Shown: positions 4,654 through 61,786 of the stretch, piece after piece
Position numbering within the stretch: position 1 is the stretch's first letter
Layout: the number at the start of each line of letters is the position of its first letter
Origin: Herminiimonas contaminans
GTDB lineage: Bacteria; Pseudomonadota; Gammaproteobacteria; Burkholderiales; Burkholderiaceae_D
Direction: 5' to 3'
Length of the DNA stretch: 64,000 bases
NCBI RefSeq assembly: GCF_015645465.1
Contig: NZ_JADOEL010000019.1
Coordinates: 1-64,000, forward strand
Program-made: the position numbers and the translations under genes
Notes under the pieces: generated by a model
What the model was told of the DNA's origin: nothing
What the model saw: only the letters and a program-made list of their open reading frames with translations
The model's database searches: none

Positions 4654-5490
4654 CTATTTCTTTTGTCGACGCTGTGCCAGATGCAGAGTCAGCTTGCCCA
4701 TGTGCTTGTAGAGCTTGCCATAACGTTTGTCCCAGCCGTTGACCGCGCGATACTGTTTGACGACGGTAGCGATGTCACCACGCGCTATAGGACCTGTCAG
4801 CGCCTGTTCCGGTCCTATCTGCAAGACGTTCTCGCTCGTTTCCCGTACCAGTGAGGCCATCATTTTTAACGCTACGTCTTGCGGTATGCCCGCCTGTGCG
4901 TAGGTCTGTACGGCAGTATCCAGCAGCGTGACGAGGTAGTTGGAGGCGAAGACCGCGCCTGCGTGATACAGCACTTTGCTTTCTCGCTGGATAGGAACCG
5001 TTTGCGCGCCTATGGCTGCAAATATTGGGGCGAGTACATCAACTGCTGCCTGATCGCCTTCCATGCCGCAGTAGGTGCCTGCAAAGTCTGCCGCTACCTT
5101 CTCCGGTACTGCAAAGCTGCGTATCGGATGAATACTGCCAACTGCTGCGTCGCGTGCACTGGCGCTGGCCAGTATGCTGGAGGAGAGTGCGCCGCTGCAG
5201 TGGAAGACTATGCTGCTTACTGATAAGTGCCCGCTGCTAGCCAATGCGTCGCAGCAAGCGGCAATTTGGTCATCGGGTGCTGCTATGAGGTAGATGTCGG
5301 CCGCTTGCAGGTCGGCGTAGCTGCTTGCCACGCGACCGGCACCGGCAAAAGCGGCGGCGCGTGCGCCGCTTGCTGTCGAGGTGTTGAGGATGTCCAGTAG
5401 CTGGACAGTCTGATGCTGCACCCACAAGCGCGCCAGCGTCTGGCCGACTTTGCCGCAACCGATGATGGAGAGTGTTTGCGGTTTGCTCAT
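4654..5490 (-). CDS. Rossmann-fold / DUF2520 oxidoreductase-like protein
   Basis: A 278-residue protein with an N-terminal dinucleotide-binding motif (IIGCGKVGQTLARLW) and a C-terminal helical half typical of the DUF2520 family. The family resembles F420/NADP-dependent and ketopantoate-type reductases. SIHPIRSFAVPE and VLYHAGAVFASNYLVTLLD are family-like blocks. The substrate is unknown. ATG 5490 lies 10 nt beyond the stop of the ABC-F gene, so the two are probably co-transcribed on the minus strand. The only neighbour downstream is the convergent vWA-like gene, with about 90 bp between them and no strong terminator. Confidence 0.8.
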   Translation of the reverse strand: MSKPQTLSIIGCGKVGQTLARLWVQHQTVQLLDILNTSTASGARAAAFAGAGRVASSYADLQAADIYLIAAPDDQIAACCDALASSGHLSVSSIVFHCSGALSSSILASASARDAAVGSIHPIRSFAVPEKVAADFAGTYCGMEGDQAAVDVLAPIFAAIGAQTVPIQRESKVLYHAGAVFASNYLVTLLDTAVQTYAQAGIPQDVALKMMASLVRETSENVLQIGPEQALTGPIARGDIATVVKQYRAVNGWDKRYGKLYKHMGKLTLHLAQRRQKK

Positions 5491-5500
5491 GGGTTGATAC

Positions 5501-7495
5501 CTAGCTGTTGATCTGTTCCAGCGCTTCCTGCTGTTCCAGCCATTCCGCTTCCAGTTGTGTCACTTCCTTGGTGTAGAAGGTCTGGTCTGCCAGCAGTTGC
5601 TTCAGTTCTTTTTTGTTTGCAGCATCGTAGATGAGCGGATCGGCCAGTTTTTCATCCACGCTGGCTTTTTGCGCATTGCGTTTGGCAATTTGCTCTTCCA
5701 GCTTTTTGATTTTCTGTTCTATCGGCTTTCTGCGGGCGGCCAGTTTTTGGCGTTCTTCGGCTTCCAGCTTTTTCTGTTCACGTTTGTCTACTGCGCTGAC
5801 TGTGGTGGCAGGTGCAACCGGGCTGGCCGATTTTTCCTTGACGGGTGGCAGGTTGGCATTGGCTGCTGCATTTTTTGCATCCAGCTTGGTTTTGAAGAGC
5901 CAGTCCTTGTAGTCGTCCAGGTCGCCGTCGAAGGGTTGCAGCTTGCCATCGGCAACGATGATGAATTGATCGGTGGTCGCGCGCAGCAGGTGCCTGTCAT
6001 GGGAAACGACCACCAGTGTGCCTTCGAACTGCGCCAGCGCCATGGTCAGCGCTTCGCGGGTTTCCAGGTCCAGATGGTTGGTCGGTTCATCGAGCAGCAA
6101 GAGGTTAGGGCGTTGCCAGACGATGAGTGCCAGCGCCAGACGGGCTTTTTCGCCGCCGGAGAATGGCGCGATTTTGCTGGTGACCATGTTGCCGTTGAAG
6201 TTGAAGCTGCCTAGGAAGTTGCGCAGTTCCTGTTCACGGACTGTCGGTGCGATGTGCATCAGGTGCCACAGCGGCGATTCATCGTGGCGCAGCATTTCTA
6301 CCTGGTGCTGGGCGAAGTAGCCGATAGCCAGGCCTTTGCCGAATTGCGAGGTGCCGTTCAGTGGTTGCAATTCGCCTGCGATGGTTTTGATCAGTGTGGA
6401 TTTACCGGCACCGTTGACGCCCAGCAAACCGATACGTTGGCCAATTTGCAGCGAGAAGTTGATGCCGGAGACAATTTTCTTCTCAGTGATCGAGTAGTCT
6501 TTTTCATCTTCAATGCGGTAACCGGCATCGACGTCTTCCATCACCAGCATAGGATTGGGCGCATTCGCCGGTTCACGGAATTCAAATGAGAATTCTGCCG
6601 CTGCACGCAAGGGCGCGAGCTCTTCCATCTTCGACAAGGCCTTGATACGGCTTTGCGCCTGGCGTGCCTTGCTGGCTTTTGCCTTGAAGCGATTGATGAA
6701 GGATTCCAGATGTGCGCGTTGACGTGCCTGCTTTTCTATTGCGCTTTGCGCGAGGATGAGTTGCGCGGCGCGTTGACGCTCGAAATCAGAGTAGTTACCC
6801 GAGTAGCGCTTCAGCTTGCGCTCATCAATATGCACGATGACGTTGACGACGCCGTCGAGGAAGTCACGGTCATGGGAGATGACGATCAGGGTGCCAGCGT
6901 AGCGCTTGAGCCAGTCTTCCAGCCAGATGATGGCGTCCAGATCCAGATGGTTGGTCGGTTCATCGAGCAGCAAGAGGTCGGACGGGCACATGAGCGCTTG
7001 TGCCAGGTTCAGGCGCATACGCCAGCCACCGGAGAAGCTGGCTACCGGTTGATCCATTTGCGCCATGGTAAAGCCCAGGCCGAGCAGTAGTTGCTCGGCA
7101 CGCGAACGTACGGTGTAAGCATCGGCATCGGCCAGCGCGCTGTATAGCTCGCCTATCAGGGTACCGTTGTCTGCGGTGTCCGGTTCGCTTTCGAGGAAGG
7201 CGAGTTCTTCTTCTAGGCGGCGCAGCGTGACGTCGCCGTCGATCGCGTAGTCGATAGCAGAGCGTTCCAGCGGCGGGGTTTCCTGCGCTACGTAGGCGAC
7301 GCGCCATTTGGCGGGGAAGTCGATGGTGCCGAGGTCGGCGTGCAGTTCACCGCGCAGCATGCCGAACAGGCTGGATTTGCCCGCACCGTTGGCACCGATC
7401 AGGCCTATTTTGTCGCCCGGATTGAGCGTGACATCGACGCTATCGAATAGCGGCTTGACGCCGCGCATGAGGGAAACTTGCTGGAGACGAATCAT
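5501..7495 (-). CDS. yheS: ABC-F family ATPase, YheS type
   Basis: A 664-residue soluble protein with two ABC ATPase domains and no membrane segments. First domain: GLIGANGAGKSSL, FSGGWRMRLNLAQAL and LLLLDEPTNHLDLDA. Second domain: GLLGVNGAGKSTLIK, FSGGEKARLALAL and LLLLDEPTNHLDLET. A linker of about 80 residues separates them, and the last 120 residues are a charged coiled coil. ABC-F proteins bind the ribosomal E site and relieve stalling. Overall order and length match YheS more closely than Uup or EttA. ATG 7495 fits the family N-terminus (MIRLQQVSLMRGVKPLFD). Confidence 0.9.
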   Translation of the reverse strand: MIRLQQVSLMRGVKPLFDSVDVTLNPGDKIGLIGANGAGKSSLFGMLRGELHADLGTIDFPAKWRVAYVAQETPPLERSAIDYAIDGDVTLRRLEEELAFLESEPDTADNGTLIGELYSALADADAYTVRSRAEQLLLGLGFTMAQMDQPVASFSGGWRMRLNLAQALMCPSDLLLLDEPTNHLDLDAIIWLEDWLKRYAGTLIVISHDRDFLDGVVNVIVHIDERKLKRYSGNYSDFERQRAAQLILAQSAIEKQARQRAHLESFINRFKAKASKARQAQSRIKALSKMEELAPLRAAAEFSFEFREPANAPNPMLVMEDVDAGYRIEDEKDYSITEKKIVSGINFSLQIGQRIGLLGVNGAGKSTLIKTIAGELQPLNGTSQFGKGLAIGYFAQHQVEMLRHDESPLWHLMHIAPTVREQELRNFLGSFNFNGNMVTSKIAPFSGGEKARLALALIVWQRPNLLLLDEPTNHLDLETREALTMALAQFEGTLVVVSHDRHLLRATTDQFIIVADGKLQPFDGDLDDYKDWLFKTKLDAKNAAANANLPPVKEKSASPVAPATTVSAVDKREQKKLEAEERQKLAARRKPIEQKIKKLEEQIAKRNAQKASVDEKLADPLIYDAANKKELKQLLADQTFYTKEVTQLEAEWLEQQEALEQINS

Positions 7496-52753: not shown

Positions 52754-54373
52754 ATGCATTCGAAAATACTCATCCTCGATTTCGGTTCCCAAGTCACCCA
52801 ATTGATCGCACGTCGTGTACGCGATTCCGGTGTTTTTTCTGAAGTCTATCCATACGACGTCAGCGATGAGTTCGTGCGCAACTACGGTGCCGCTGGTGTG
52901 ATCCTGTCAGGTGGTCCGAACTCGGTGATCGAAGGCGACGAATCGCCGCGTGTACCGCAAGCCGTATTTGAACTGGGTGTGCCGGTTCTGGGTATCTGCT
53001 ACGGCATGCAGGCAATGGCAGAGCAACTGGGCGGCAAGGTAGAAAACGGCAAGGTACGTGAATTCGGTTACGCCGAAGTACGTGCGCATGGCCACACCGC
53101 TTTGCTTAAAGACATCAGCGACTTCACCACGGCCGAAGGCCATGGCATGCTGAAAGTCTGGATGAGCCATGGTGACAAGGTCAATGAAATGCCACCTGGC
53201 TTCAAGCTGATGGCATCGACACCAAATTGCCCGATCGCCGGTATGGCGGACGAAGCACGTCGCATGTACGCATTCCAGTTCCATCCTGAAGTGACGCATA
53301 CCGTACAAGGTAAAGCCATCATCGCGCGCTTCGTGCATGAAATTTGCGGCTGTAAATCGGATTGGAACATGCCGGATTACATCGCCGAAGCAGTCGAAAA
53401 AATCCGCCAGCAAGTCGGCAGCGACGAAGTCATCCTCGGCTTGTCCGGTGGCGTCGACAGCAGTGTTGCTGCAGCGCTGATCCATCGCGCGATTGGCGAC
53501 CAGTTGACCTGCGTATTTGTCGATCACGGTTTGCTGCGTCTGGATGAAGGCAAGATGGTAATGGAGATGTTTGCCGAGAATCTCGGTGTCAACGTCATCC
53601 ACATCGATGCAGTCGATCAGTTCATGGGTCATCTGGCGGGTGTCAGCGATCCGGAAGCCAAGCGCAAAATCATCGGCCGTGAATTCGTCGAAGTATTCCA
53701 GGTCGAAGCTGGCAAGCGCAAGAATGCCAAATGGCTGGCACAAGGCACGATCTACCCTGACGTCATCGAAAGTGCAGGCAAGGGTAAGAAGGGTCACACT
53801 ATCAAGAGCCACCACAACGTAGGCGGCTTGCCGGAAACCCTGAACCTGCAATTGCTGGAACCACTGCGTGAATTGTTCAAGGATGAAGTGCGTCAACTGG
53901 GCGTAGCGCTCGGTTTGCCGCATGACATGGTGTACCGCCATCCATTCCCAGGCCCAGGCCTCGGCGTGCGTATCCTCGGTGAAGTGAAAAAGGAATTTGC
54001 CGACCTCTTGCGCCGTGCCGATGCCATCTTCATCGAAGAACTGCGCAAGACACCATTCGTCGCCACACCAGGCGCATCGGAAGCAACCGACAACGGTATT
54101 CCGCATCGCAACTGGTACGACGCAACCAGCCAGGCCTTTGCCGTCTTCCTGCCAGTCAAATCGGTAGGCGTGATGGGCGATGGTCGTACCTATGAGTACG
54201 TGGTGGCTTTGCGCGCAGTACAGACACAAGACTTCATGACCGCACACTGGGCGCATTTGCCGCATGAGCTGCTGGGCAATGTCTCGAACCGCATCATCAA
54301 TGAAGTACGCGGTATTAATCGCGTGGTCTACGATATCTCGGGTAAACCGCCTGCGACGATTGAGTGGGAATGA
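52754..54373 (+). CDS. guaA: GMP synthase (glutamine-hydrolysing)
   Basis: A 539-residue enzyme that aminates XMP to GMP. The glutaminase domain has the nucleophile in [15 protein letters not shown] and the catalytic His in FHPEVTHT. The ATP pyrophosphatase P-loop is [14 protein letters not shown]. The C-terminal dimerisation domain is complete and ends ATIEWE. The 3' end of guaA is a known attachment site for genomic islands, and an integrase gene lies 308 nt downstream. Confidence 0.97.
54343..54373 (+). other. Presumed attachment site at the guaA 3' end
   Basis: The last 31 bp of guaA are the likely attL core, because islands with integrases of this kind often use this spot and restore the gene end. 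No second copy is visible, since the far end of the element is outside the window. This is inferred from position only. Confidence 0.3.
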
Positions 54374-54420
54374 TCACACGTCTGGCATCAGCAGGCAGCT
54401 GATGGCACCAAAACACCCGT

Positions 54421-54446
54421 AAGCCCGCGTCACTGCGGGCTTTTTT
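54421..54446 (+). terminator. Terminator after guaA
   Basis: AAGCCCGC and GCGGGCTT pair around a 6-nt loop and are followed by T6, 47 nt after the guaA stop. Confidence 0.85.
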
Positions 54447-54502
54447 GCTTTTTGGTCTGGCATTGGCTGGCATCTTCAAGCACCGGCAAGTACGCTTTTC
54501 TT

Positions 54503-54656
54503 ATGGTACGGCGGATGGTACTATCTCACTCGATACCATGAGAGACGCCCGATACCATGCCATGGTCTTTAGACTTAACATGGTATTGAAAGTTCGTAAC
54601 GTGTTGATTTTTAAGTAGAAAAGTCGCTTTTTTAATGCTGATTTTGATCATGGTAT
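54503..54656. repeat. Cluster of ATGGTAY / GRTACCAT repeats before the integrase gene
   Basis: Seven related heptamers lie in 154 bp. ATGGTAC occurs at 54503 and 54515, GATACCAT at 54532 and 54551, ATGGTC at 54562, and ATGGTAT at 54580 and 54650. Both orientations occur. Such clusters next to an int gene can be arm-type integrase or excisionase sites, or operators of the int promoter. The rest of the 308 bp guaA-int interval has no gene. Confidence 0.6.
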
Positions 54657-54681
54657 TTTGAACCTAGATAGGACGAATGCC

Positions 54682-55890
54682 ATGCTCACCGATACCAAGC
54701 TTCGCAACATCAAGCCGCAGGACAAGCTCTACAAAGTCAACGACCGCGACGGCCTCTATGTGGCCGTCACACCGGCCGGAGCGATCTCGTTCCGCTACAA
54801 CTACTCGATCAACGGCAGGCAGGAAACCATCACCTTCGGTCGCTACGGCAGCGGAGGCATCACCTTGTCGGAAGCCCGCGAGCAGCTGGGTGAAGCCAAG
54901 AAGATGATTGCGGCAGGCAAGTCACCGGCCAAGGAGAAGGCGCGAGACAAAGCCCGCGTAAAAGATGCCGAGACATTCGGTGCATGGGCCGAAAAGTGGT
55001 TACGCGGCTACCAAATGGCCGACTCGACCAGAGATATGCGACGTGCAATCTATGAGCGGGAGTTGAAACCGAAATTCGGCAACCAGAAGCTGGTAGAAAT
55101 CACCCATGAGGACTTGCGGACGCTGACCGATACCATTGTTGAGCGCGGCGCGCCAGCTACGGCGGTGCATGTGCGCGAAGTAGTCATGCAGGTTTTTCGA
55201 TGGGCAATCGAGCGTGGCCAGAAGGTGGAAAATCCGGCGGATATGGTCAGGCCAACCACCATTGCCAAGTTTGAGCCCCGTGATCGTGCGTTGACGCATG
55301 ACGAGATCGGGCTGATGTACCAGTACATGGAGCGCATCGGCACGACACCCTCGATTCGGGCTGCGGCCAAGTTGCTACTGCTGACAATGGTTCGCAAGAG
55401 TGAACTGACGAACGCTACATGGAGCGAAGTCAATTTCAGCGAGGCCCTTTGGACGGTTCCCAAGGAGCGGATGAAGCGGCGCAACCCCCATCACGTCTAC
55501 CTATCTCGGCAGGCTCTGGATATTTTCATCGCACTGAAGACGTTTGCCGGTGGGTCTGAGTACGTGCTGCCATCAAGATATGACTCGGACTTACCAATGA
55601 GCAGTGCCACGCTCAACCAGGTGCTGACGCTGACTTACAGGTTGGCACAGAAGGAAGGCAAGACGCTGGCGAAGTTCGGGCCGCATGATCTACGGCGAAC
55701 TGCAAGCACGTTGCTACATGAAGCTGGATACAACACTGACTGGATTGAAAAGTGCCTTGCCCACGAGCAGAAGGGTGTAAGGGCGGTGTACAACAAGGCC
55801 GAATATCGGGAGCAACGCACGGCCATGTTGCAAGATTGGGCAGACATGATTGATGAATGGACGGTTAAGCGGCTGCGACCGAATGATTGA
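54682..55890 (+). CDS. Tyrosine site-specific integrase of an integrative element
   Basis: About 402 residues of the P4/DUF4102 integrase type. The N-terminal arm-binding domain (LYKVNDRDGLYVAVTP, RQETITFGRYG) precedes the catalytic domain. Catalytic residues appear as Arg in MVRKSELTNATW, the H-x-x-R box in GPHDLRRTAST, His in CLAHEQKG and Tyr in AVYNKAEY. The open frame begins with TTG 54658; ATG 54682 after AGGA is preferred. It should integrate and excise the element at guaA. The last 26 bp overlap the convergent alpA gene. Confidence 0.92.
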   Translation: MLTDTKLRNIKPQDKLYKVNDRDGLYVAVTPAGAISFRYNYSINGRQETITFGRYGSGGITLSEAREQLGEAKKMIAAGKSPAKEKARDKARVKDAETFGAWAEKWLRGYQMADSTRDMRRAIYERELKPKFGNQKLVEITHEDLRTLTDTIVERGAPATAVHVREVVMQVFRWAIERGQKVENPADMVRPTTIAKFEPRDRALTHDEIGLMYQYMERIGTTPSIRAAAKLLLLTMVRKSELTNATWSEVNFSEALWTVPKERMKRRNPHHVYLSRQALDIFIALKTFAGGSEYVLPSRYDSDLPMSSATLNQVLTLTYRLAQKEGKTLAKFGPHDLRRTASTLLHEAGYNTDWIEKCLAHEQKGVRAVYNKAEYREQRTAMLQDWADMIDEWTVKRLRPND

Positions 55891-56101
55891 CGCCAGGACG
55901 GCTGGCCTGGTTGCCAGACGACCTTCGCGCCTCAATCCATTCTTCAACCTCCGCAAGGTCCCAAGCTACGTTACGGCTGGTTAGTGCGATACGGCGTGGG
56001 AACTCCCCTCGCTGTTCCATGTTGAAAATCGTACGCTCGGCCAGTGGAATCATGGCAAGCAACTTTTTGCGGTTGATGAGGGTCTTGTTTTTCACAGGCA
56101 T
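55865..56101 (-). CDS. AlpA-family regulator / probable excisionase
   Basis: A 78-residue winged helix-turn-helix protein: KLLAMIPLAERTIFNMEQRG, then EFPRRIALTSRNVAWDLAEV, then EEWIEARR. This is the AlpA pattern. AlpA-type proteins act as activators or directionality factors for neighbouring P4-type integrases. It is convergent with int and overlaps it by 26 bp. It is read from the left arm of the 97 bp inverted repeat, through a 27-residue upstream frame whose TGA overlaps its start. Confidence 0.85.
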   Translation of the reverse strand: MPVKNKTLINRKKLLAMIPLAERTIFNMEQRGEFPRRIALTSRNVAWDLAEVEEWIEARRSSGNQASRPGVNHSVAAA

Positions 56102-56175
56102 GCTCCGAGTGAAGAAGCATGAATCACCATCAAATCGGCTTGCGGTGCCTCTGTTGAAACCTTTTTTATACGCAT
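56092..56175 (-). CDS. 27-residue reading frame leading into alpA
   Basis: ATG 56175 stands 10 nt behind AAGGA within the repeated leader and reads MRIKKVSTEAPQADLMVIH and 8 further residues. Its stop overlaps the alpA start (ATGCCTGTGA). The same start context precedes the 70-residue gene on the other repeat arm. It may be a coupling leader peptide or a gene remnant; no protein evidence exists. Confidence 0.35.
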   Translation of the reverse strand: MRIKKVSTEAPQADLMVIHASSLGACL

Positions 56176-56264
56176 TTCAATGCATCCTTTACGGTTGAAT
56201 ACTGACCGCAATGGTGCTTGGATACGTTGATTTTAATTACGCAAAAAGTTATTAATGTGTTGTC
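56168..56264 (-). promoter_or_regulatory. Left arm of 97 bp inverted repeat: outward promoter for alpA
   Basis: Read outward on the minus strand it shows TTAATAACTTTTTG, a 17-nt spacer, TATCCA, then a 45-nt leader with dyad TTGCGGT-N9-ACCGTAA, AAGGA and ATG 56175. The outer 52 bases match the right arm at 49 positions, while the 17-nt spacer hardly matches. Confidence 0.6.
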
Positions 56265-56340
56265 GGCGTCTGAGTTGCCGGTGATGACCGCCATGACGAC
56301 TCAACTAACGGCGAGCATTTTCTTGGGTGTCTGTAGAAAA

Positions 56341-56359
56341 GCAGAGCGTGTACACGCAT
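56341..56359. repeat. 19 bp repeat with GCGTGTACACGC palindrome, copy 1
   Basis: GCAGAGCGTGTACACGCAT lies in non-coding DNA 46 bp beyond the stop of the 292-residue gene. An identical copy sits inside trbL at 61598-61616. Confidence 0.6.
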
Positions 56360-56404
56360 TAGTTGCAGTCACGTCGATGCACAAAGCCGATGCGACCAGG
56401 TTCC

Positions 56405-57283
56405 TCACAACTTGTCTAGCGTCGGCTGCGGCATCAAACCATGCCGCTTTATCGCAATGGATACGGCTTGTCTTTCCAAGCCAAGTTGACGTGCTATCTC
56501 GGCCTGATTGGTGATGCCTTGGGCCAGCATATTCGCAATCAGGCTTTTTGTGTCCTTCATTGCATGCAGTAGGCGGTAGGCCTCTTTTCTTACGTAGGTA
56601 TGAGCCTCAATGTCCCAGAGTGGCAGCTTGTTCGCTTGCTTACTCCAAATCATGGACATCAATTCTGCATACTCGTTAGTCAGTCGGCGGTCACGCTGGT
56701 AGGTACGCTGGGCACTGGTGCTACGTCTCGGGTTGTGGTGTTCGCAATAAAGTTTGCTCGGCTTCGCTGATCCCTCTTTTTGATTGGGTAAAAGCGCTGC
56801 GCCGAGCATGTCACCACGCTTGCTCCATGCCGCTATCTGTGTAGCACGCTCCACTTGGTCGCGGAAAGCAGTCACAGAAAAGTCACCCCGCATCTCTCGA
56901 ACGTTGCAGTAGGTCATCACCATGCGGAGCGCTTCCTGCACGCTTGGAAGTGTGTACTCGGCACTGTCCCATCGCGGCAGCACTCCGCCTGGAAGCAGTT
57001 TTTCGTAACGCTCGATCAAGTCGTCAGCTTTGCGCTGCGCATCTTTACGCATGGCATCAGTTAGCGGCACCTCTTTGGCGCTATCTCTGGTTGTTCGTTT
57101 AAAGACTTTCCTTGCCTCTAATGCGCAGACGTACTCAGTGTTGCGCCAGCAAAGTTCGCAGAAGCACCACTTGTAGGCGTCTTGGAGTTTGGTGCGGATC
57201 TTCTCCGAAGTCGTATCGCATTCCGCCACCAAGACACCCAACAACGGGTTCATGCGGCGTGTTCGTTTAACTGTCTTCATCAT
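56405..57283 (-). CDS. Unknown 292-residue protein with C-terminal helix-turn-helix
   Basis: Not recognised. Residues about 40-55 hold the pair CFCELCWRN, and later CEHHNPRRS adds another Cys and two His, so a metal site is possible. The middle is charged and helical. The C-terminus, ANMLAQGITNQAEIARQLGL then ERQAVSIAIKRHG, is a clear helix-turn-helix. ATG 57283 begins exactly at the inner edge of the right repeat arm, and the gene fills the space between the two arms. It may be the regulator of both flanking operons. No ribosome binding site stands out. Confidence 0.65.
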   Translation of the reverse strand: MMKTVKRTRRMNPLLGVLVAECDTTSEKIRTKLQDAYKWCFCELCWRNTEYVCALEARKVFKRTTRDSAKEVPLTDAMRKDAQRKADDLIERYEKLLPGGVLPRWDSAEYTLPSVQEALRMVMTYCNVREMRGDFSVTAFRDQVERATQIAAWSKRGDMLGAALLPNQKEGSAKPSKLYCEHHNPRRSTSAQRTYQRDRRLTNEYAELMSMIWSKQANKLPLWDIEAHTYVRKEAYRLLHAMKDTKSLIANMLAQGITNQAEIARQLGLERQAVSIAIKRHGLMPQPTLDKL

Positions 57284-57380
57284 GACAACAGTTTAATAAC
57301 TTTTTGGCGCTTGTCAAGAAGCATATCAAAGCACCATTGCGGTCAGTATTCAACCGTAAAGGACGCATAGAAATGCATAT
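57284..57380 (+). promoter_or_regulatory. Right arm of 97 bp inverted repeat: outward promoter for the trfA operon
   Basis: Outward on the plus strand: TTTAATAACTTTTTG (57291-57305 region), a 17-nt spacer, TATCAA, then the leader with the dyad TTGCGGT-N9-ACCGTAA, AAGGA and ATG 57373. The inner edge touches the start codon of the 292-residue gene. Confidence 0.6.
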
Positions 57381-57585
57381 CGAAGAAGCGCTAACAAAGC
57401 AGTACGGGCCATTGATGAGCATTGCTCAGCTGGCAGCTTGCCTTGACCGTTCGGCAGAAGGATTGCGCATTAGCCTGCGCACAGAGTCGGAATGGTCCAA
57501 GTCAATCAATGCGACCAAATTGAAACTTGGCCGACGTGTCTATTTTCGGACAGCTGAAATTGCCCTCGTTCTGAGCGGCAAGTAA
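57373..57585 (+). CDS. Small AlpA/MerR-like DNA-binding protein upstream of trfA
   Basis: A 70-residue protein. LMSIAQLAACLDRSAEGLRI is a helix-turn-helix, and KLGRRVYFRTAEIALVLSG is the wing and last helix seen in AlpA/excisionase-like proteins. ATG 57373 follows AAGGA in the repeated leader. The trfA gene starts 10 nt after its stop. Such small genes often precede plasmid rep genes. A role in controlling replication is inferred. Confidence 0.7.
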   Translation: MHIEEALTKQYGPLMSIAQLAACLDRSAEGLRISLRTESEWSKSINATKLKLGRRVYFRTAEIALVLSGK

Positions 57586-57595
57586 AGCGGCCGGC

Positions 57596-58483
57596 ATGAC
57601 GTCTTCACTGCTTGCTCAACATCCCGCGTTGGTTGCGCGGATGGCAGAGGCGCAGGCCCGCACTGCAGCGCGCCGCGAATCGCCTGAGCCACAGCAGATG
57701 TTCTTACCAGGGCTTGACCCCGAAGTTAGGGCGATGCCCAACCATGTCGCCCGATCATCGCTTTTTGCGCCTGTTGCCCGTGGCCGCAAGGTTCTGCATG
57801 AACAGACGGTTCTGGTGAGTCGCGCAGACGCCACCATCACTTACACCGGGTATCAGCTGGATGAGGCTCAGGCTGATGCATGGATGCAGCTCATGTTCGA
57901 GGCGAAGGATGCCCCGCTTGGTCAGCCTGTCCTCATCAATCGAGCTGCATTCCTGCAGGCCATTGGACGCGGGACGAGCGGCCGGGAATATGAGTGGCTA
58001 CATCGAGCGATGTTCGTGTTCACGGCAGCAACCATCGTCATTGAGACGCGCAAGCGAGACGGCGCACCGAAGTACCGCTTGGGGCACACCAAGGCATTTC
58101 ACATGCTGGCCGATTTTGAATATGACGCGGATGCCGAAACCTACACCTTCACCATTGATCCGCGTTGGAAAACACTGTTTGGTGGCCGGGAATATGCCCT
58201 GATCGACTGGGACAAGCGTTTGCAGATCGCCCAGGGCCAAGACATGGCAAAGGCGCTGCAGCGACTGACCGCAACATCCTCTGACCCTGTGCAGCGGTAC
58301 GCGCTGGACTGGCTTAAAGAAAAGCTGCAATACACCAGTCCGATTCGGAAGTTCAGGGCATCGTTGATCGCTGCCATGCAGGAGTTGGAGCGTGTTGGCG
58401 TCATCGCCGGCGGCCGCATCGAACGCAGCACCAAGGGCCGTGAGCAGGCGGCCTGGACCAAGCTGGCCGGGGAGGAGTCTTGA
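57596..58483 (+). CDS. trfA: TrfA-family plasmid replication initiator
   Basis: A 295-residue protein of the IncP TrfA family. Typical blocks are the N-terminal MFLPGLDPEVRAMPNHVARS and SLFAPVARGRKVLHE, then LGHTKAFHMLADFEYD and FTIDPRWKTLFGGREYALID. It is close in size to the short TrfA form. TrfA binds iterons and loads the helicase at oriV. A replication initiator in an integrated element suggests that the excised circle can replicate. Four direct repeats lie directly downstream. Confidence 0.85.
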   Translation: MTSSLLAQHPALVARMAEAQARTAARRESPEPQQMFLPGLDPEVRAMPNHVARSSLFAPVARGRKVLHEQTVLVSRADATITYTGYQLDEAQADAWMQLMFEAKDAPLGQPVLINRAAFLQAIGRGTSGREYEWLHRAMFVFTAATIVIETRKRDGAPKYRLGHTKAFHMLADFEYDADAETYTFTIDPRWKTLFGGREYALIDWDKRLQIAQGQDMAKALQRLTATSSDPVQRYALDWLKEKLQYTSPIRKFRASLIAAMQELERVGVIAGGRIERSTKGREQAAWTKLAGEES

Positions 58484-58496
58484 TGCGCTCAACCCA

Positions 58497-58581
58497 TCGT
58501 GTTTGCGTTCCGGGGGCGTCGTGTTTGCGTTCCGCTTTCTCGTGCTTGGATTCCGCTTTTTCGTGTTTGCGTTCCACCCCA
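58497..58581 (+). repeat. Four 21-22 bp direct repeats (candidate iterons)
   Basis: Units start at 58497, 58519, 58540 and 58561 and share TCGTGTTTGCGTTCC; the third reads TCGTGCTTGGATTCC. The spacing of 21-22 bp equals two helical turns. They begin 14 bp after the trfA stop in DNA without a supportable gene. Confidence 0.7.
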
Positions 58582-58631
58582 TCGCCGCAAACCCGCATGG
58601 GCATTGGCTTTAAGAGCAGTTCGCCGCCCTC

Positions 58632-58676
58632 TACCTTCTTTTTACCTTCTCTTTACCGGGAAGTGCCTGTGGACAA
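58632..58676 (+). other. Candidate unwinding segment and DnaA-like box
   Basis: TACCTTCT occurs at 58632 and 58643 and a partial TACC at 58654, giving an 11-bp period in a pyrimidine-rich run. TGTGGACAA at 58668-58676 differs by one base from the DnaA box TGTGGATAA. Together with the four repeats upstream this resembles an iteron origin. Confidence 0.4.
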
Positions 58677-58770
58677 CCAGGCGCAACAGCAGCTCACCTC
58701 ACTTCGGCAGCGTCGTCGTCATCGACTTGCTGAGGAAATTCAATTGATGACGCCAAAAGGAGAAATAGCA

Positions 58771-59523
58771 ATGCACAACTCAACAGCACGAAAGGCCGTT
58801 TTGGTCGCGCTCGTGTCCACCATGGCAGTGTCCGCCGCTAACGCGGGGAGCGTGGCCGGTAACGGTGGCTCTACGGAAGTGACGCAGATTTTGAACAACG
58901 TCGAGCTGATTCAGCAATCGGCTCAGATGTACCAACAGGTTCAGCAGACCCTGCAGCAGGTACAGATGGCCCAGCAACAGCTGAAGAACTTGATGGCTGC
59001 ACCACAACAGTTGTGGGGCCAGGCTCAACAGGAATTGACCAGCCTGACCCAACTGGTTGCGCAGACCAACGCCATCAGCTACGCCGCCGGCAACATTGAC
59101 CAGTCGTTTAAGCAAGCGTTTCCTGGCTATGCAAAAAGTGCGGGCGCAACGAATTACGGCACCAAGTACGCCGCGCTCATTACGAAGGCCATGGACGGCT
59201 TGAGTTCGGCGCTGCAAGGAGCAGGACTGAATGCCAATCAGTTTGCGAATGAGCGCGCCGCTATCCAACAGATTCAGGGCATTTCCGCTGGTTCGCAAGG
59301 CTCCCTGCAGGCGGTTCAGGCCGGCAACATGATCGCCAGCCAAACGGTGGACCAGCTGCAGAAATTGCGCCAGTTGCTGGCCAGCCAGGCGCAGTCGCAA
59401 GCGAACTTCCTGGGCGCGCAGGCGCAGATTCAGGCAGACCAGACAGATGCCACACAGACCCTTCTGAAACAAGGTGATGGCACCGTGCGCAAGGCTGGCC
59501 AGAGCGGCTACAAAACTTTCTGA
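58771..59523 (+). CDS. trbJ: P-type conjugative transfer protein TrbJ
   Basis: A 250-residue periplasmic type IV secretion protein (VirB5-like). Its signal peptide is VLVALVSTMAVSAANAG, followed by long Gln-rich helices (QMYQQVQQTLQQVQMAQQQL). The open frame extends to 58480 across the repeat region, but ATG 58771 after AAAGGAG gives the signal peptide. The last residues, GTVRKAGQSGYKTF, closely resemble the tail of the next gene product. The trbJ-trbK-trbL order matches IncP plasmids. Confidence 0.88.
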   Translation: MHNSTARKAVLVALVSTMAVSAANAGSVAGNGGSTEVTQILNNVELIQQSAQMYQQVQQTLQQVQMAQQQLKNLMAAPQQLWGQAQQELTSLTQLVAQTNAISYAAGNIDQSFKQAFPGYAKSAGATNYGTKYAALITKAMDGLSSALQGAGLNANQFANERAAIQQIQGISAGSQGSLQAVQAGNMIASQTVDQLQKLRQLLASQAQSQANFLGAQAQIQADQTDATQTLLKQGDGTVRKAGQSGYKTF

Positions 59524-59534
59524 GGATCGACGCC

Positions 59535-59786
59535 ATGAAAAATTTCATCAAGCAAATGAGCCACGACCAAAAGCGTTGGTTTTCCCTTGGCGTTGCCTTG
59601 ATCCTGTTCACCTTGTTTTCGCTTTTGACTGGATGTAGTGACAAGGCGGCGGAAGAAAGCGCTGCGCGTCAGAAGGCGCAAGACGCAGCCATGCAGCAGA
59701 TGCTGAAACAAAGCGGAGCGGCCAGTGCGCCGGACGGTAGCCACACCGTGCGCAAAGCTGGCGAATCCGGCATGAAGGGGTACTGA
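59535..59786 (+). CDS. trbK: Small lipoprotein, TrbK-like (entry exclusion candidate)
   Basis: An 83-residue protein with a membrane segment and lipobox FSLLTGC; Cys34 is the likely lipidated residue. In IncP plasmids the small lipoprotein TrbK between trbJ and trbL blocks entry of a second copy. Size, lipobox and place agree; sequence similarity to known TrbK could not be tested. The C-terminus HTVRKAGESGMKGY repeats the TrbJ tail. Confidence 0.65.
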   Translation: MKNFIKQMSHDQKRWFSLGVALILFTLFSLLTGCSDKAAEESAARQKAQDAAMQQMLKQSGAASAPDGSHTVRKAGESGMKGY

Positions 59787-59789
59787 TCC

Positions 59790-60026
59790 ATGTGTGACGC
59801 TGAATTCAGACATTACTTCGCCAAGGCCAAGGACGCCAAAAGGGGCGGAAAGGACGCATGGGATGTGCAATCCACAGGCGAAAAGGTGGCCGTAGCGCTC
59901 GCGCTCAACAAGCCCGAATGGCTTGCAAGCCTGGGATACACCCTTGCCGAAGCCATCGACCGCACAGGGCCGCAATGGATTGCGTTGCTGCCGCGTGTTG
60001 AGCGTGCCTTGCTTGACCTCGAATAG
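59790..60026 (+). CDS. Small unknown protein between trbK and trbL
   Basis: A 78-residue soluble protein starting 3 nt after the lipoprotein gene. It contains EKVAVALALNKPEWLASLGY and ends with an amphipathic helix (WIALLPRVERALLDLE). No family was recognised. Its place inside the trb genes suggests a transfer-related or regulatory role. Confidence 0.6.
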   Translation: MCDAEFRHYFAKAKDAKRGGKDAWDVQSTGEKVAVALALNKPEWLASLGYTLAEAIDRTGPQWIALLPRVERALLDLE

Positions 60027-60046: not shown

Positions 60047-61786
60047 ATGAAACAACGTAATCTGTTCCTTCTGGCCTTTGGCCTTCTGATGATCGCATCG
60101 CCAGCATTCGCCGACACCACCGGCTATGACTTGGGTTCGATCATGGACAAGTACCAAGCGGCCGCCACTCAGTTCGGCTCGAACATCACTGCTGTGGCGC
60201 TCAAGCTCTGCTACACGTTATTCGCCATCGACCTAGCTTGGACGGTTCTCGGCCGACTTCTCAAGGGTTCTGACATTGTGGAAATCGGCACCACGCTAAT
60301 CATGCGGGTAATGTGGGTTGGCCTTGTCGTGTGGGTCATCAACAACCCCAGCGTGCCGCTGGCATTCGTCAATGGCTTTATCCAGTTGGGCAAGACTGGC
60401 GCGAACACCTCAGCCATCAGTCCCGGCGACGTGTTCTGGCAGGGCATTGACCTGGTGAACATGATGATGACCAAGTTTTCCGACAATGCCACTGTGGCCG
60501 GCGTGCCGGTTCCGGCAGGGATCGCGGCGATGGCCAACCCCTTTGCTGCCATCCTGATTGGCATTGCCTTAATCGTCATCGTCGTTTGTTACGCCATGTT
60601 GGCGGCGCAATTCGCGGTGGCCTGGGTTCAACTCTGGTTTTACCTTGCTGTCTATCCGATTGTCTTGGCATTCGGTGCGATGAAGTGGACCAAAGACATA
60701 GCGATGAAGGTCATCACCACACCGCTTGTCTATGGCGTTCGGTTTATGGCGATCTACTTCATCATGGCCGTGGGAACGACCCTGGCCCAGGACTTTGGCA
60801 CCGAGATTGGAAACCTCTCGCTGACCAACCTGACGCCGATCTGGACGATCCTGGCAGGCTCTGTACTGTTGTTCATGCTCACGTTGAAGGTGCCGACGCT
60901 GGCGGCCGATTTGTTGGGCGGCACAGCATCGTTGTCTGCTGGTGATGGTGTCGGCGCTGGCCTGGTAGCTGGTGGCGCTGTCGCGGCCGTGGCCGGAGGT
61001 GCATATGCCGCTGGGTCTACCCTAGCGAACGGTGTAGGCGGTGCCATAAAGGCGGGTCAAGCTGCGATAACGCAGGCCCGCGAAAAAGGTGCCACGGGTG
61101 TCATGGGTACGGCTGCAGGTGCCGCTGGTGCGGTCGGTAGCGCCGTTGGCGAAGCTGCGATGGAGGGCATCAAGGGCTTGGGCGGTGATTCCATGGGCGG
61201 TCGCCTGGCCGGGCGCATCGACACCAAAACAGCTGGTATCCGCGAAAGCAAAGCAGCGGCCAGCGTGTCTGCGCCATCCGTTCCAGGTAGCCAACCGCCA
61301 GCGCCTGCCAGCGGTGAATCCAGTCCAGCGACCACCACACCACAGGCCCCGCCTGCAACCGAAGGAAGCCAATCCACCCAGCCGGCAGCAGCGCCCACTG
61401 AAACGCCGCCAGAGCCGACGCGCGACACGCCAGCAGCACCGACCACCAGCAGCACCGCGACAGGCGAGCCAGGCGCACCTGCAGCCACCTCGACTGACGT
61501 AACGGCTCCGGCGCTGGCCACACCACCAGCACAGAACGGGTTGCCTGCAGAGGCACCTTCTGCACACACACCGCCGATAGCTGCACCAGTTGCAAATGCA
61601 GAGCGTGTACACGCATCCGATCCGGTCGCTGTTGCCGCAGCTGTGCCAACGGGCGACACAGCGGATGCGGAATCGCCAGGTGCATCGAGTAAGGCTGCTT
61701 TGGCCGTCAAGGCAGTTCTCAACGAGGTGCAGAAAACCAGCGGCTCAGGCGGCGGGTCTGTGCAAACCAGTCACGGCAATGAATAA
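60047..61786 (+). CDS. trbL: P-type conjugative transfer protein TrbL
   Basis: A 579-residue inner-membrane channel protein (VirB6-like). A signal-like start (LFLLAFGLLMIASPAFAD) is followed by about six membrane helices to residue 300 and a Gly/Ala-rich stretch. From about residue 400 the tail is a disordered Pro/Ala/Thr-rich region. ATG 60047 follows GGGAG. The 19 bp palindromic repeat falls in the tail. It would form part of the mating pore; the other trb genes are not in the window. Confidence 0.88.
   Translation: MKQRNLFLLAFGLLMIASPAFADTTGYDLGSIMDKYQAAATQFGSNITAVALKLCYTLFAIDLAWTVLGRLLKGSDIVEIGTTLIMRVMWVGLVVWVINNPSVPLAFVNGFIQLGKTGANTSAISPGDVFWQGIDLVNMMMTKFSDNATVAGVPVPAGIAAMANPFAAILIGIALIVIVVCYAMLAAQFAVAWVQLWFYLAVYPIVLAFGAMKWTKDIAMKVITTPLVYGVRFMAIYFIMAVGTTLAQDFGTEIGNLSLTNLTPIWTILAGSVLLFMLTLKVPTLAADLLGGTASLSAGDGVGAGLVAGGAVAAVAGGAYAAGSTLANGVGGAIKAGQAAITQAREKGATGVMGTAAGAAGAVGSAVGEAAMEGIKGLGGDSMGGRLAGRIDTKTAGIRESKAAASVSAPSVPGSQPPAPASGESSPATTTPQAPPATEGSQSTQPAAAPTETPPEPTRDTPAAPTTSSTATGEPGAPAATSTDVTAPALATPPAQNGLPAEAPSAHTPPIAAPVANAERVHASDPVAVAAAVPTGDTADAESPGASSKAALAVKAVLNEVQKTSGSGGGSVQTSHGNE
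61598..61616. repeat. 19 bp repeat with GCGTGTACACGC palindrome, copy 2
   Basis: Identical to 56341-56359. It lies within the trbL coding region for the low-complexity tail. Confidence 0.6.

Follow-up and report, generated by a model that had tools for sequence, protein, structure and literature searches.

The window examined here, a stretch of 64,000 nucleotides of Herminiimonas contaminans DNA (assembly GCF_015645465.1, contig NZ_JADOEL010000019.1, positions 1-64,000), probably contains a lambda-like immunity region within an element integrated at guaA. As read from the comparison of related sequences, paired operators in two mirrored arms would repress an excision gene and a replication operon together, and would form, with the gene for their repressor, an exchangeable cassette that sets specificity.

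Gene content of the element integrated at guaA

The integrase gene adjoins the 3' end of guaA (52754-54373; Table 1). The same linkage was seen in L007, L010-L013, L026-L030, L051 and L052, and the integrase was 88-99.5% identical across 12 guaA-linked relatives. Downstream of the TrfA gene and the direct repeats that follow it, a conjugation gene of the TrbL/VirB6 family (PF04610) lies at 60047-61786, and relatives of VirB5 and VirB6 adjoin the integrase in L007, L010, L011 and L012. By its gene content the locus is a guaA-integrated element with conjugation genes, on a contig that ends at 74386. Two additional frames between integrase and alpA in L007 (8481-9961) perhaps mark a spot for accessory genes, and the integrase match of L028 (15441-16507) falls into two pieces, suggesting a frameshift. 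In L013 a phosphotransferase-like frame (APH, PF01636; 6324-7025) stands 3' of the rep gene and is cut off by the contig end.

The AlpA domain (PF05930) was recognized in the alpA product with 46.7 bits against a cut-off of 21, and the gene also matches PHROG excisionase families; its start may be the GTG at 56095 instead of the ATG. The predicted model of p70 reached a pLDDT of 91.6, and the matches of this protein to excisionases were weak (best E 0.09 in PDB). Together the TrfA initiator and the four 21-nt repeats, presumably iterons, are by family and arrangement a TrfA iteron replicon, and direct repeats spaced by about 21 nt were found in L012, L031 and L055 too. Excision is the function predicted for alpA, and replication that predicted for p70 and TrfA, from the families of their products.

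Table 1. Features of the element and of its putative control region, in window coordinates
Feature	Position	Strand	Evidence or remark
Tyrosine integrase, beside guaA 3' end	54679..55890	+	PF00589
alpA, excisionase-type regulator, 78 aa counted from ATG	55865..56101	-	PF05930, E 2.9e-12
27-codon leader frame, opened by left arm	56092..56175	-	its stop and the proposed alpA GTG start overlap
Exchangeable cassette: leader, both arms, repressor-like gene	56099..57372	.	no plus-strand blastn match to L010
Left arm, before alpA side, reads outward (leftward)	56168..56264	-	79/97 identical to right arm
Left outer block: dyad, AAGGA, leader-frame start codon	56168..56219	-	49/52 against right; fold z -3.05
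Left inner block, probable repressor operator, GACAAC...AACTTTTTG	56242..56264	-	gene start not recognised here
Repressor-like gene, 292 aa, class A	56405..57283	-	C-terminal helix-turn-helix
Right arm, before p70-trfA operon, reads outward (rightward)	57284..57380	+	79/97 identical to left arm
Right inner block, probable repressor operator	57284..57306	+	complement GTTGTC abuts repressor ATG
Right outer block: dyad 57337-57343/57353-57359, AAGGA 57359-57363, ATG 57373	57329..57380	+	fold z -2.00
p70, 70 aa, first gene of replication operon	57373..57585	+	predicted model read as winged helix
TrfA-family replication initiator, 295 aa	57596..58483	+	PF07042, E 3e-9, 36.8 bits, cut-off 22
Four 21-nt direct repeats, iteron-like, candidate replication origin	58497..58581	+	repeat finding in sequence

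Mirrored arms flank the helix-turn-helix gene

The first-pass annotation had described two inverted arms of 97 bp before the alpA and trfA operons, and this description was borne out. Read outward from 56264 to 56168 on the minus strand and from 57284 to 57380 on the plus strand, the arms aligned without gaps (identities in Table 1), with a local alignment score of 110 against a maximum of 27 in 200 dinucleotide-preserving shuffles. The gene enclosed by them does encode, as had been proposed, a helix-turn-helix protein whose start touches the right arm, and it sits between two inverted, outward-reading regions in a layout of lambda type. With 56100-57450 as the query, no third arm was found in the same genome at E <= 0.001, the only matches being self and the two arm cross-matches, and nothing rose above shuffles across 20,087 bases of the element. 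The arms are regarded as putative control regions.

The dyad, AAGGA and start codon that had been listed for the outer part are all present, although the left start codon (56175) belongs to the 27-codon leader and not to alpA. Leader frames of 31 and 34 codons occupy the equivalent position in L010 and L011. Further in, TTTTTG (57301-57306 in the right arm, 56247-56242 in the left) is followed at a distance of 17 nt by TATCAA (right, 57324-57329) or TATCCA (left, 56224-56219). These hexamers and their spacing are real in the window, but TATCMA does not stand at that place in the relatives' arms compared. Their interpretation as a conserved, selected promoter is not supported, as no consistent outward -10 was found across the family and TATCMA cannot be taken as a selected family -10 box.

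Arm number in related elements

Genome searches that started from the repressor or from its relatives hit 3/294, 8/399, 5/369 and 12/294 genomes. All four counts include the genome of the window itself, and both 294-genome searches cover one family, probably in one and the same sample. With p70 as the query, a scan of genome contigs yielded eight loci, including those of Undibacterium griseum (L010, the place of L008/G032), a Rhodoferax MAG (L011), Paracidovorax cattleyae (L012) and a Comamonas MAG (L013). Queried with p70 and with the repressors of the window and of L011, 72,556 plasmid records gave no relative, and none of the 33 stretches that fitted a pattern among viral contigs with TrfA was confirmed. 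Left out of the arm counts were L014-L017 (Acidobacteria; p70 relative only), L029 (contig starts within the element), L054 (without a p70 or alpA match), L056 (truncated) and the weak matches G115, G173, G224, G291, G746, G764 and G999. The p70 relatives of L014-L017 are 61-73% identical and occur without alpA, repressor or TrfA matches; in L015 the gene that comes after p70 encodes a ParA-type ATPase.

In nine elements the repressor gene separates alpA from the p70 operon (the window, L007, L010, L011, L012, L013, L026, L051 and L052). When the paired arms of the window were sought in these relatives, as the first-pass annotation had suggested, a related block before both operons was clear in eight of the nine and weak in L051. 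An inverted second copy beat 200/200 dinucleotide shuffles in seven of them (the window, L007, L010, L011, L012, L013 and L052). The margin was small in L007 (28 vs 27), in which the inner block matched at 20/27 positions (0/2000 shuffles), and for L013 it is the wide test that the second copy passes, the narrow inner-block test region having cut off its block. The wide local-score test was not passed by L026 (22, reached by 32/200 shuffles), in which the inner block matched at 21/27 (0/2000 shuffles). For L051 the inner match of 15/27 was reached by 154/2000 shuffles and the wide score of 18 by 175/200.

No second copy rose above the best shuffle in any of the seven one-arm elements (L027, L028, L030, L031, L053, L055 and L057). 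L055 (3/200 shuffles) and L028 (5/200) came closest, and a wider scan with plain shuffles gave marginal extra matches in L027 (29 vs 28) and L031 (28 vs 27). Elements in which a single arm served two separate operons would count against the coupling of excision and replication. In L027, L028 and L030, alpA itself is the first gene of an operon that runs divergently from the repressor and includes the replication-type gene, and no alpA match was found in the fetched stretches of L031, L053, L055 and L057, to which the search for alpA was confined; this agrees with coupling. The replication-type gene behind alpA encodes an RPA initiator in L027 and an AAA_25 protein in L028 and L030, which we take to be a RepA-type helicase. 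Behind p70 stands TrfA in the window, L010, L011, L012, L031, L052 and L055, RepA_C in L013, AAA_25 with RepC in L051, and RepC in L026. Replication-type genes (TrfA, RepA_C, RPA, RepC, AAA_25; by Pfam or tblastn) were found in the operon of 13/16 elements, and the gene behind p70 gave no replication-initiator match in L007 (HTH_36 only), L053 (nothing) or L057 (ParA-type ATPase). Arm number appears to go with how many operons there are to control, L051 being the weak case.

Additional copies and fusions were observed in three elements. L026 carries a third copy of the right arm (5484-5581; score 62 vs a shuffle maximum of 29), complete with inner block, outer block and ATG, that opens a 92-codon frame (PF17273, DUF5338), presumably TraK-like, ahead of a gene of the TraJ family; in this element the switch may extend to a third operon, one related to transfer. 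A second, diverged p70-like frame that lies further along L051 (14085-14300) is 45% identical, and an arm copy there did not rise above shuffles. In the Paracidovorax element (L012, 3143-3388), AlpA opens with the p70-like MQIEEV, in-frame to the usual AlpA start, as if p70 codons had been copied along with the left arm.

Division of the arm into inner and outer blocks

The arm had been treated as a single unit by the first-pass annotation and is better described as having at least two parts. Outward from the repressor start it consists of G[T/A]CAAC with an AT-rich block (about 23 nt), about 20 variable nt and the outer block; L055 has TACAAC in place of the hexamer. The distance from G[T/A]CAAC to the start codon is 83-104 nt, and 86-93 nt in 21/24 arms. 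This anchor was found by the pattern [GT][TA]CAAC within the first 40 nt, which by our own estimate is expected in about 3% of random 40-mers, and its presence in 24/24 arms is partly due to selection.

Across 15 elements, the more alike two repressors are, the more alike are their inner blocks (Mantel rho 0.53, p 0.0004), a relation that the outer blocks do not show (rho 0.055, p 0.28); L057, in which p70 lies further away, was excluded from the inner-block statistics, and several of the statistics rest on shuffles that ignore relatedness, related elements not being independent. The two inner blocks of an element match each other, the diagonal sum of the 9x9 comparison being unreached in 100,000 permutations and the own partner being the sole best in 6/9 elements. 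Outer blocks are matched within elements as well (permutation p 0.00014, own best in 5/9), so left-right matching alone cannot single out the operator. Because the inner block tracks repressor identity and the outer block does not, the inner block of about 23 nt is likely to be the repressor operator. Left arms retain this block though a gene start is not recognised there.

It has to be considered whether the arms are instead a duplicated 5' region of p70 that gene conversion keeps alike. The left copy would then only offer alpA a different signal for its expression, and the protein encoded between the arms would have no special tie to that copy. Conversion would leave inner and outer blocks alike within elements and unlike between them, as is seen, and the left arms of L011, L012 and L013 start with p70-like codons (MQIEKALT, MQIEEV and MQIEAK). 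In L026 and L052, however, the inner blocks agree and the outer blocks differ, repressor identity is followed by the inner and not by the outer block, and a second arm is not convincing in one-operon elements. Gene conversion may help to keep the arms alike; as the explanation of their presence it is improbable.

A TTGACA-like peak lies inside the inner block, with a mean of 3.58 of 6 at GTCAAC+10 (24 arms; shuffle 95% level 2.25, the shuffles not preserving relatedness). A -10 peak about 17 nt beyond it was not found in the 24 arms, and the position of an outward -10 is not common to them. The -10-like peaks fall within the AT-rich inner block, with a marginal other at +49 (2.54 vs 2.50). The lack of a clear outward -10 lends some weight to the view that the 292-residue protein is an activator of both operons, in the manner of SetCD or AcaCD, with the inner block as a site overlapping or upstream of the -35. 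That view is nevertheless unlikely, for the right inner block sits on the protein's own start codon, which is a usual place of an operator for autorepression, and constitutive activation would be expected to destabilise the integrated state. Repression from the inner block is the preferred reading. A leftward -10 for the repressor itself, scored without a significance test, reached a mean best of 4.07 of 6 over the 15 arms that are right or single and of 3.56 over the 9 left arms.

The repressor ATG follows GTTGAC or a variant immediately in 10/15 elements and lies at most 4 nt away in 14/15. As several repressor genes have additional in-frame ATGs upstream, the start beside GTTGAC is uncertain. 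Since the ATG adjoins GTTGAC in most elements, the comparison suggests a repressor message that is leaderless or almost leaderless.

A leader hairpin that would hide the ribosome site was also considered for the outer block and is weakly supported. A folding tendency is present in the arms (mean z -1.42 in 25 arms, of which paired ones are not independent, vs -0.32 in 119 control 5' regions, p 0.015), and pairing of the ribosome site is not raised (3.56 vs 3.39 of 6, p 0.62).

Exchange of the central cassette

Between the window and L010, identity is 96.6% over 54300-56098 and 98.25% over 57373-60000, and no plus-strand blastn match was found between 56098 and 57373. Against L011 the two sides are 94.8% and 96.3% identical with the same edges, and the interval between them contains a single match of 26 nt (56333-56358). 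The replaced stretch runs from the start of alpA to the p70 ATG. When L010 (class A) is compared with L011 (class B), identity extends into both outer blocks (L010 positions 3901 and 4942), so that the part that differs is the inner blocks and the repressor. In both comparisons the putative operators and the repressor gene appear to have been exchanged together, as they are in lambda.

The same three elements bear on the proposal that the arms serve chiefly as AlpA or p70 sites, these two small, excisionase-like proteins switching each other on with the 292-residue protein as bystander or co-activator. In its favour, the outer dyad is nearly identical between the window's two arms and the p70 model is confident with weak excisionase matches. 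Against it, AlpA and TrfA are 95-100% and p70 86-89% identical among the window, L010 and L011, yet the window outer block differs from theirs, where conservation would be expected of a dyad that these proteins read. This is the least probable of the readings.

The 26-nt match to L011 contains the palindrome GCGTGTACACGC (window 56346-56357), another copy of which lies at window 61605. Its core is found 11-84 nt past the repressor stop in the window, L007, L011, L012 and L052; in the remaining 11/16 elements it was not seen past the repressor stop. Copies at other places occur in some elements.

The helix-turn-helix protein

Class A repressors are 44-65% identical to the window protein. Those of classes B and C are 18-22% identical to it, the common part being mainly the C-terminal helix-turn-helix and the YCxxH residues, which are kept in 11/11 aligned repressors. 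The predicted model of the window repressor is poor (pLDDT 55), and no family was matched above a curated cut-off. The KORA domain fell below its cut-off of 26.7 bits in the window (14.1 bits) and in L012 (14.5), a CI/HTH_3 match to the window protein was not found in Pfam or PHROGs at the limits used, and the repressors of L012 and L026 gave HTH_3, HTH_26 or Cro matches below cut-off only. A profile search of PDB with the helix-turn-helix gave as best match a phage immunity repressor (7r6r, which we take to be that of Mycobacteriophage TipsytheTRex; E 1.6e-4), and KORA-domain chains appeared more weakly (E 0.015) among other regulators.

A putative lambda-like switch

As a repressor, the helix-turn-helix protein would occupy the inner block of each arm and close two outward promoters, one serving alpA and excision, the other serving p70 and TrfA and, once the circle has been excised, its replication. 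The right inner block adjoins the repressor ATG, and for this reason the protein would also bind across its own start and regulate itself, from a transcript that is probably leaderless or nearly so. Were repression to fail, excision and replication would begin together. Each cassette would set its own immunity specificity, given that operators and repressor are swapped as one block. The outer-block dyad might conceivably add a second layer of control as a 5' leader hairpin near the ribosome site. The coupling of excision and replication that the first-pass annotation had drawn from twin promoters has good support from the relatives in arm number, inner-block variation and the cassette swap; the promoter argument itself is not supported.

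How the timing of excision is set against copying of the circle is a general question, since excision without replication risks loss. The layouts seen here (one arm for a single operon, an arm for each of two operons, and one arm where alpA was not found) are in effect a natural experiment on that coupling. If the cassettes are immunity groups, coexistence or exclusion of two elements in one cell would be predictable, as it is with lambdoid immunity types. A wider reading, which we consider evenly poised, is that guaA conjugative elements have built a switch of lambdoid type from a different repressor family, with swapped heteroimmunity cassettes deciding the mutual exclusion of related elements, and with the third arm of L026 placing excision, replication and transfer on one switch. 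A literature search returned no paper combining 'integrative and conjugative element', 'AlpA' and 'TrfA'.

Relation to known regulatory systems

The nearest known controls are those of trfA by KorA and of ICEBs1 by ImmR. In RP4/RK2, KorA is described as a single plasmid repressor with seven operators on RP4 that represses trfA (PMC7314908). The element is like this system in having trfA downstream of a putative operator and a KORA match, weak and below the Pfam cut-off, in the window helix-turn-helix. Unlike KorA, the window protein would control an excisionase-type gene, and it is about three times larger. In ICEBs1, ImmR acts on Pxis and the relaxase serves replication. Pxis transcribes the excisionase and relaxase genes (PMC8960796). 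ImmR-ImmA likewise belongs to an integrative conjugative element and has a single operon, as in L027, L028 and L030, whereas the window splits excision and replication onto two sides with two arms. The cited parts of these two sources mention no repressor gene enclosed by a pair of mirror-image arms, either for KorA (PMC7314908) or for ImmR (PMC8960796). In SXT/R391, the repressor SetR controls excision and transfer and excised circles replicate (PMC4489591). Unlike the putative window switch, SetR is described there as working via the activators SetCD, and SXT/R391 replication as needing the relaxase TraI and oriT and not TrfA and iterons. The TipsytheTRex immunity repressor binds an asymmetric site, as the title of its report states (PMC9283540), and the inner block, too, appears asymmetric. 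The likeness of that repressor to the window protein is confined to 45 profile positions, and its system is one of phage stoperators.

The immunity region of lambda consists of OL-pL, cI and OR-pR, with the repressor gene between inverted operator-promoters. Excision genes lie on one side, and a small DNA-binding protein followed by replication genes lies on the other; operators and repressor exchange as a unit, and the repressor start is at or near the transcription start. The element differs from lambda in being conjugative and not a phage, in having one operator block seen per arm and not three, and in a p70 model without Cro among the 50 fold matches listed for it. Because the window repressor gave no CI-family match at the limits used, the window switch would not be a member of the lambda region and would work like it. 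It shares with lambda a repressor-like gene between mirrored arms, with alpA on one side and p70 then TrfA on the other, arms and repressor that are swapped together, and a repressor start that probably lies at or near the start of transcription.
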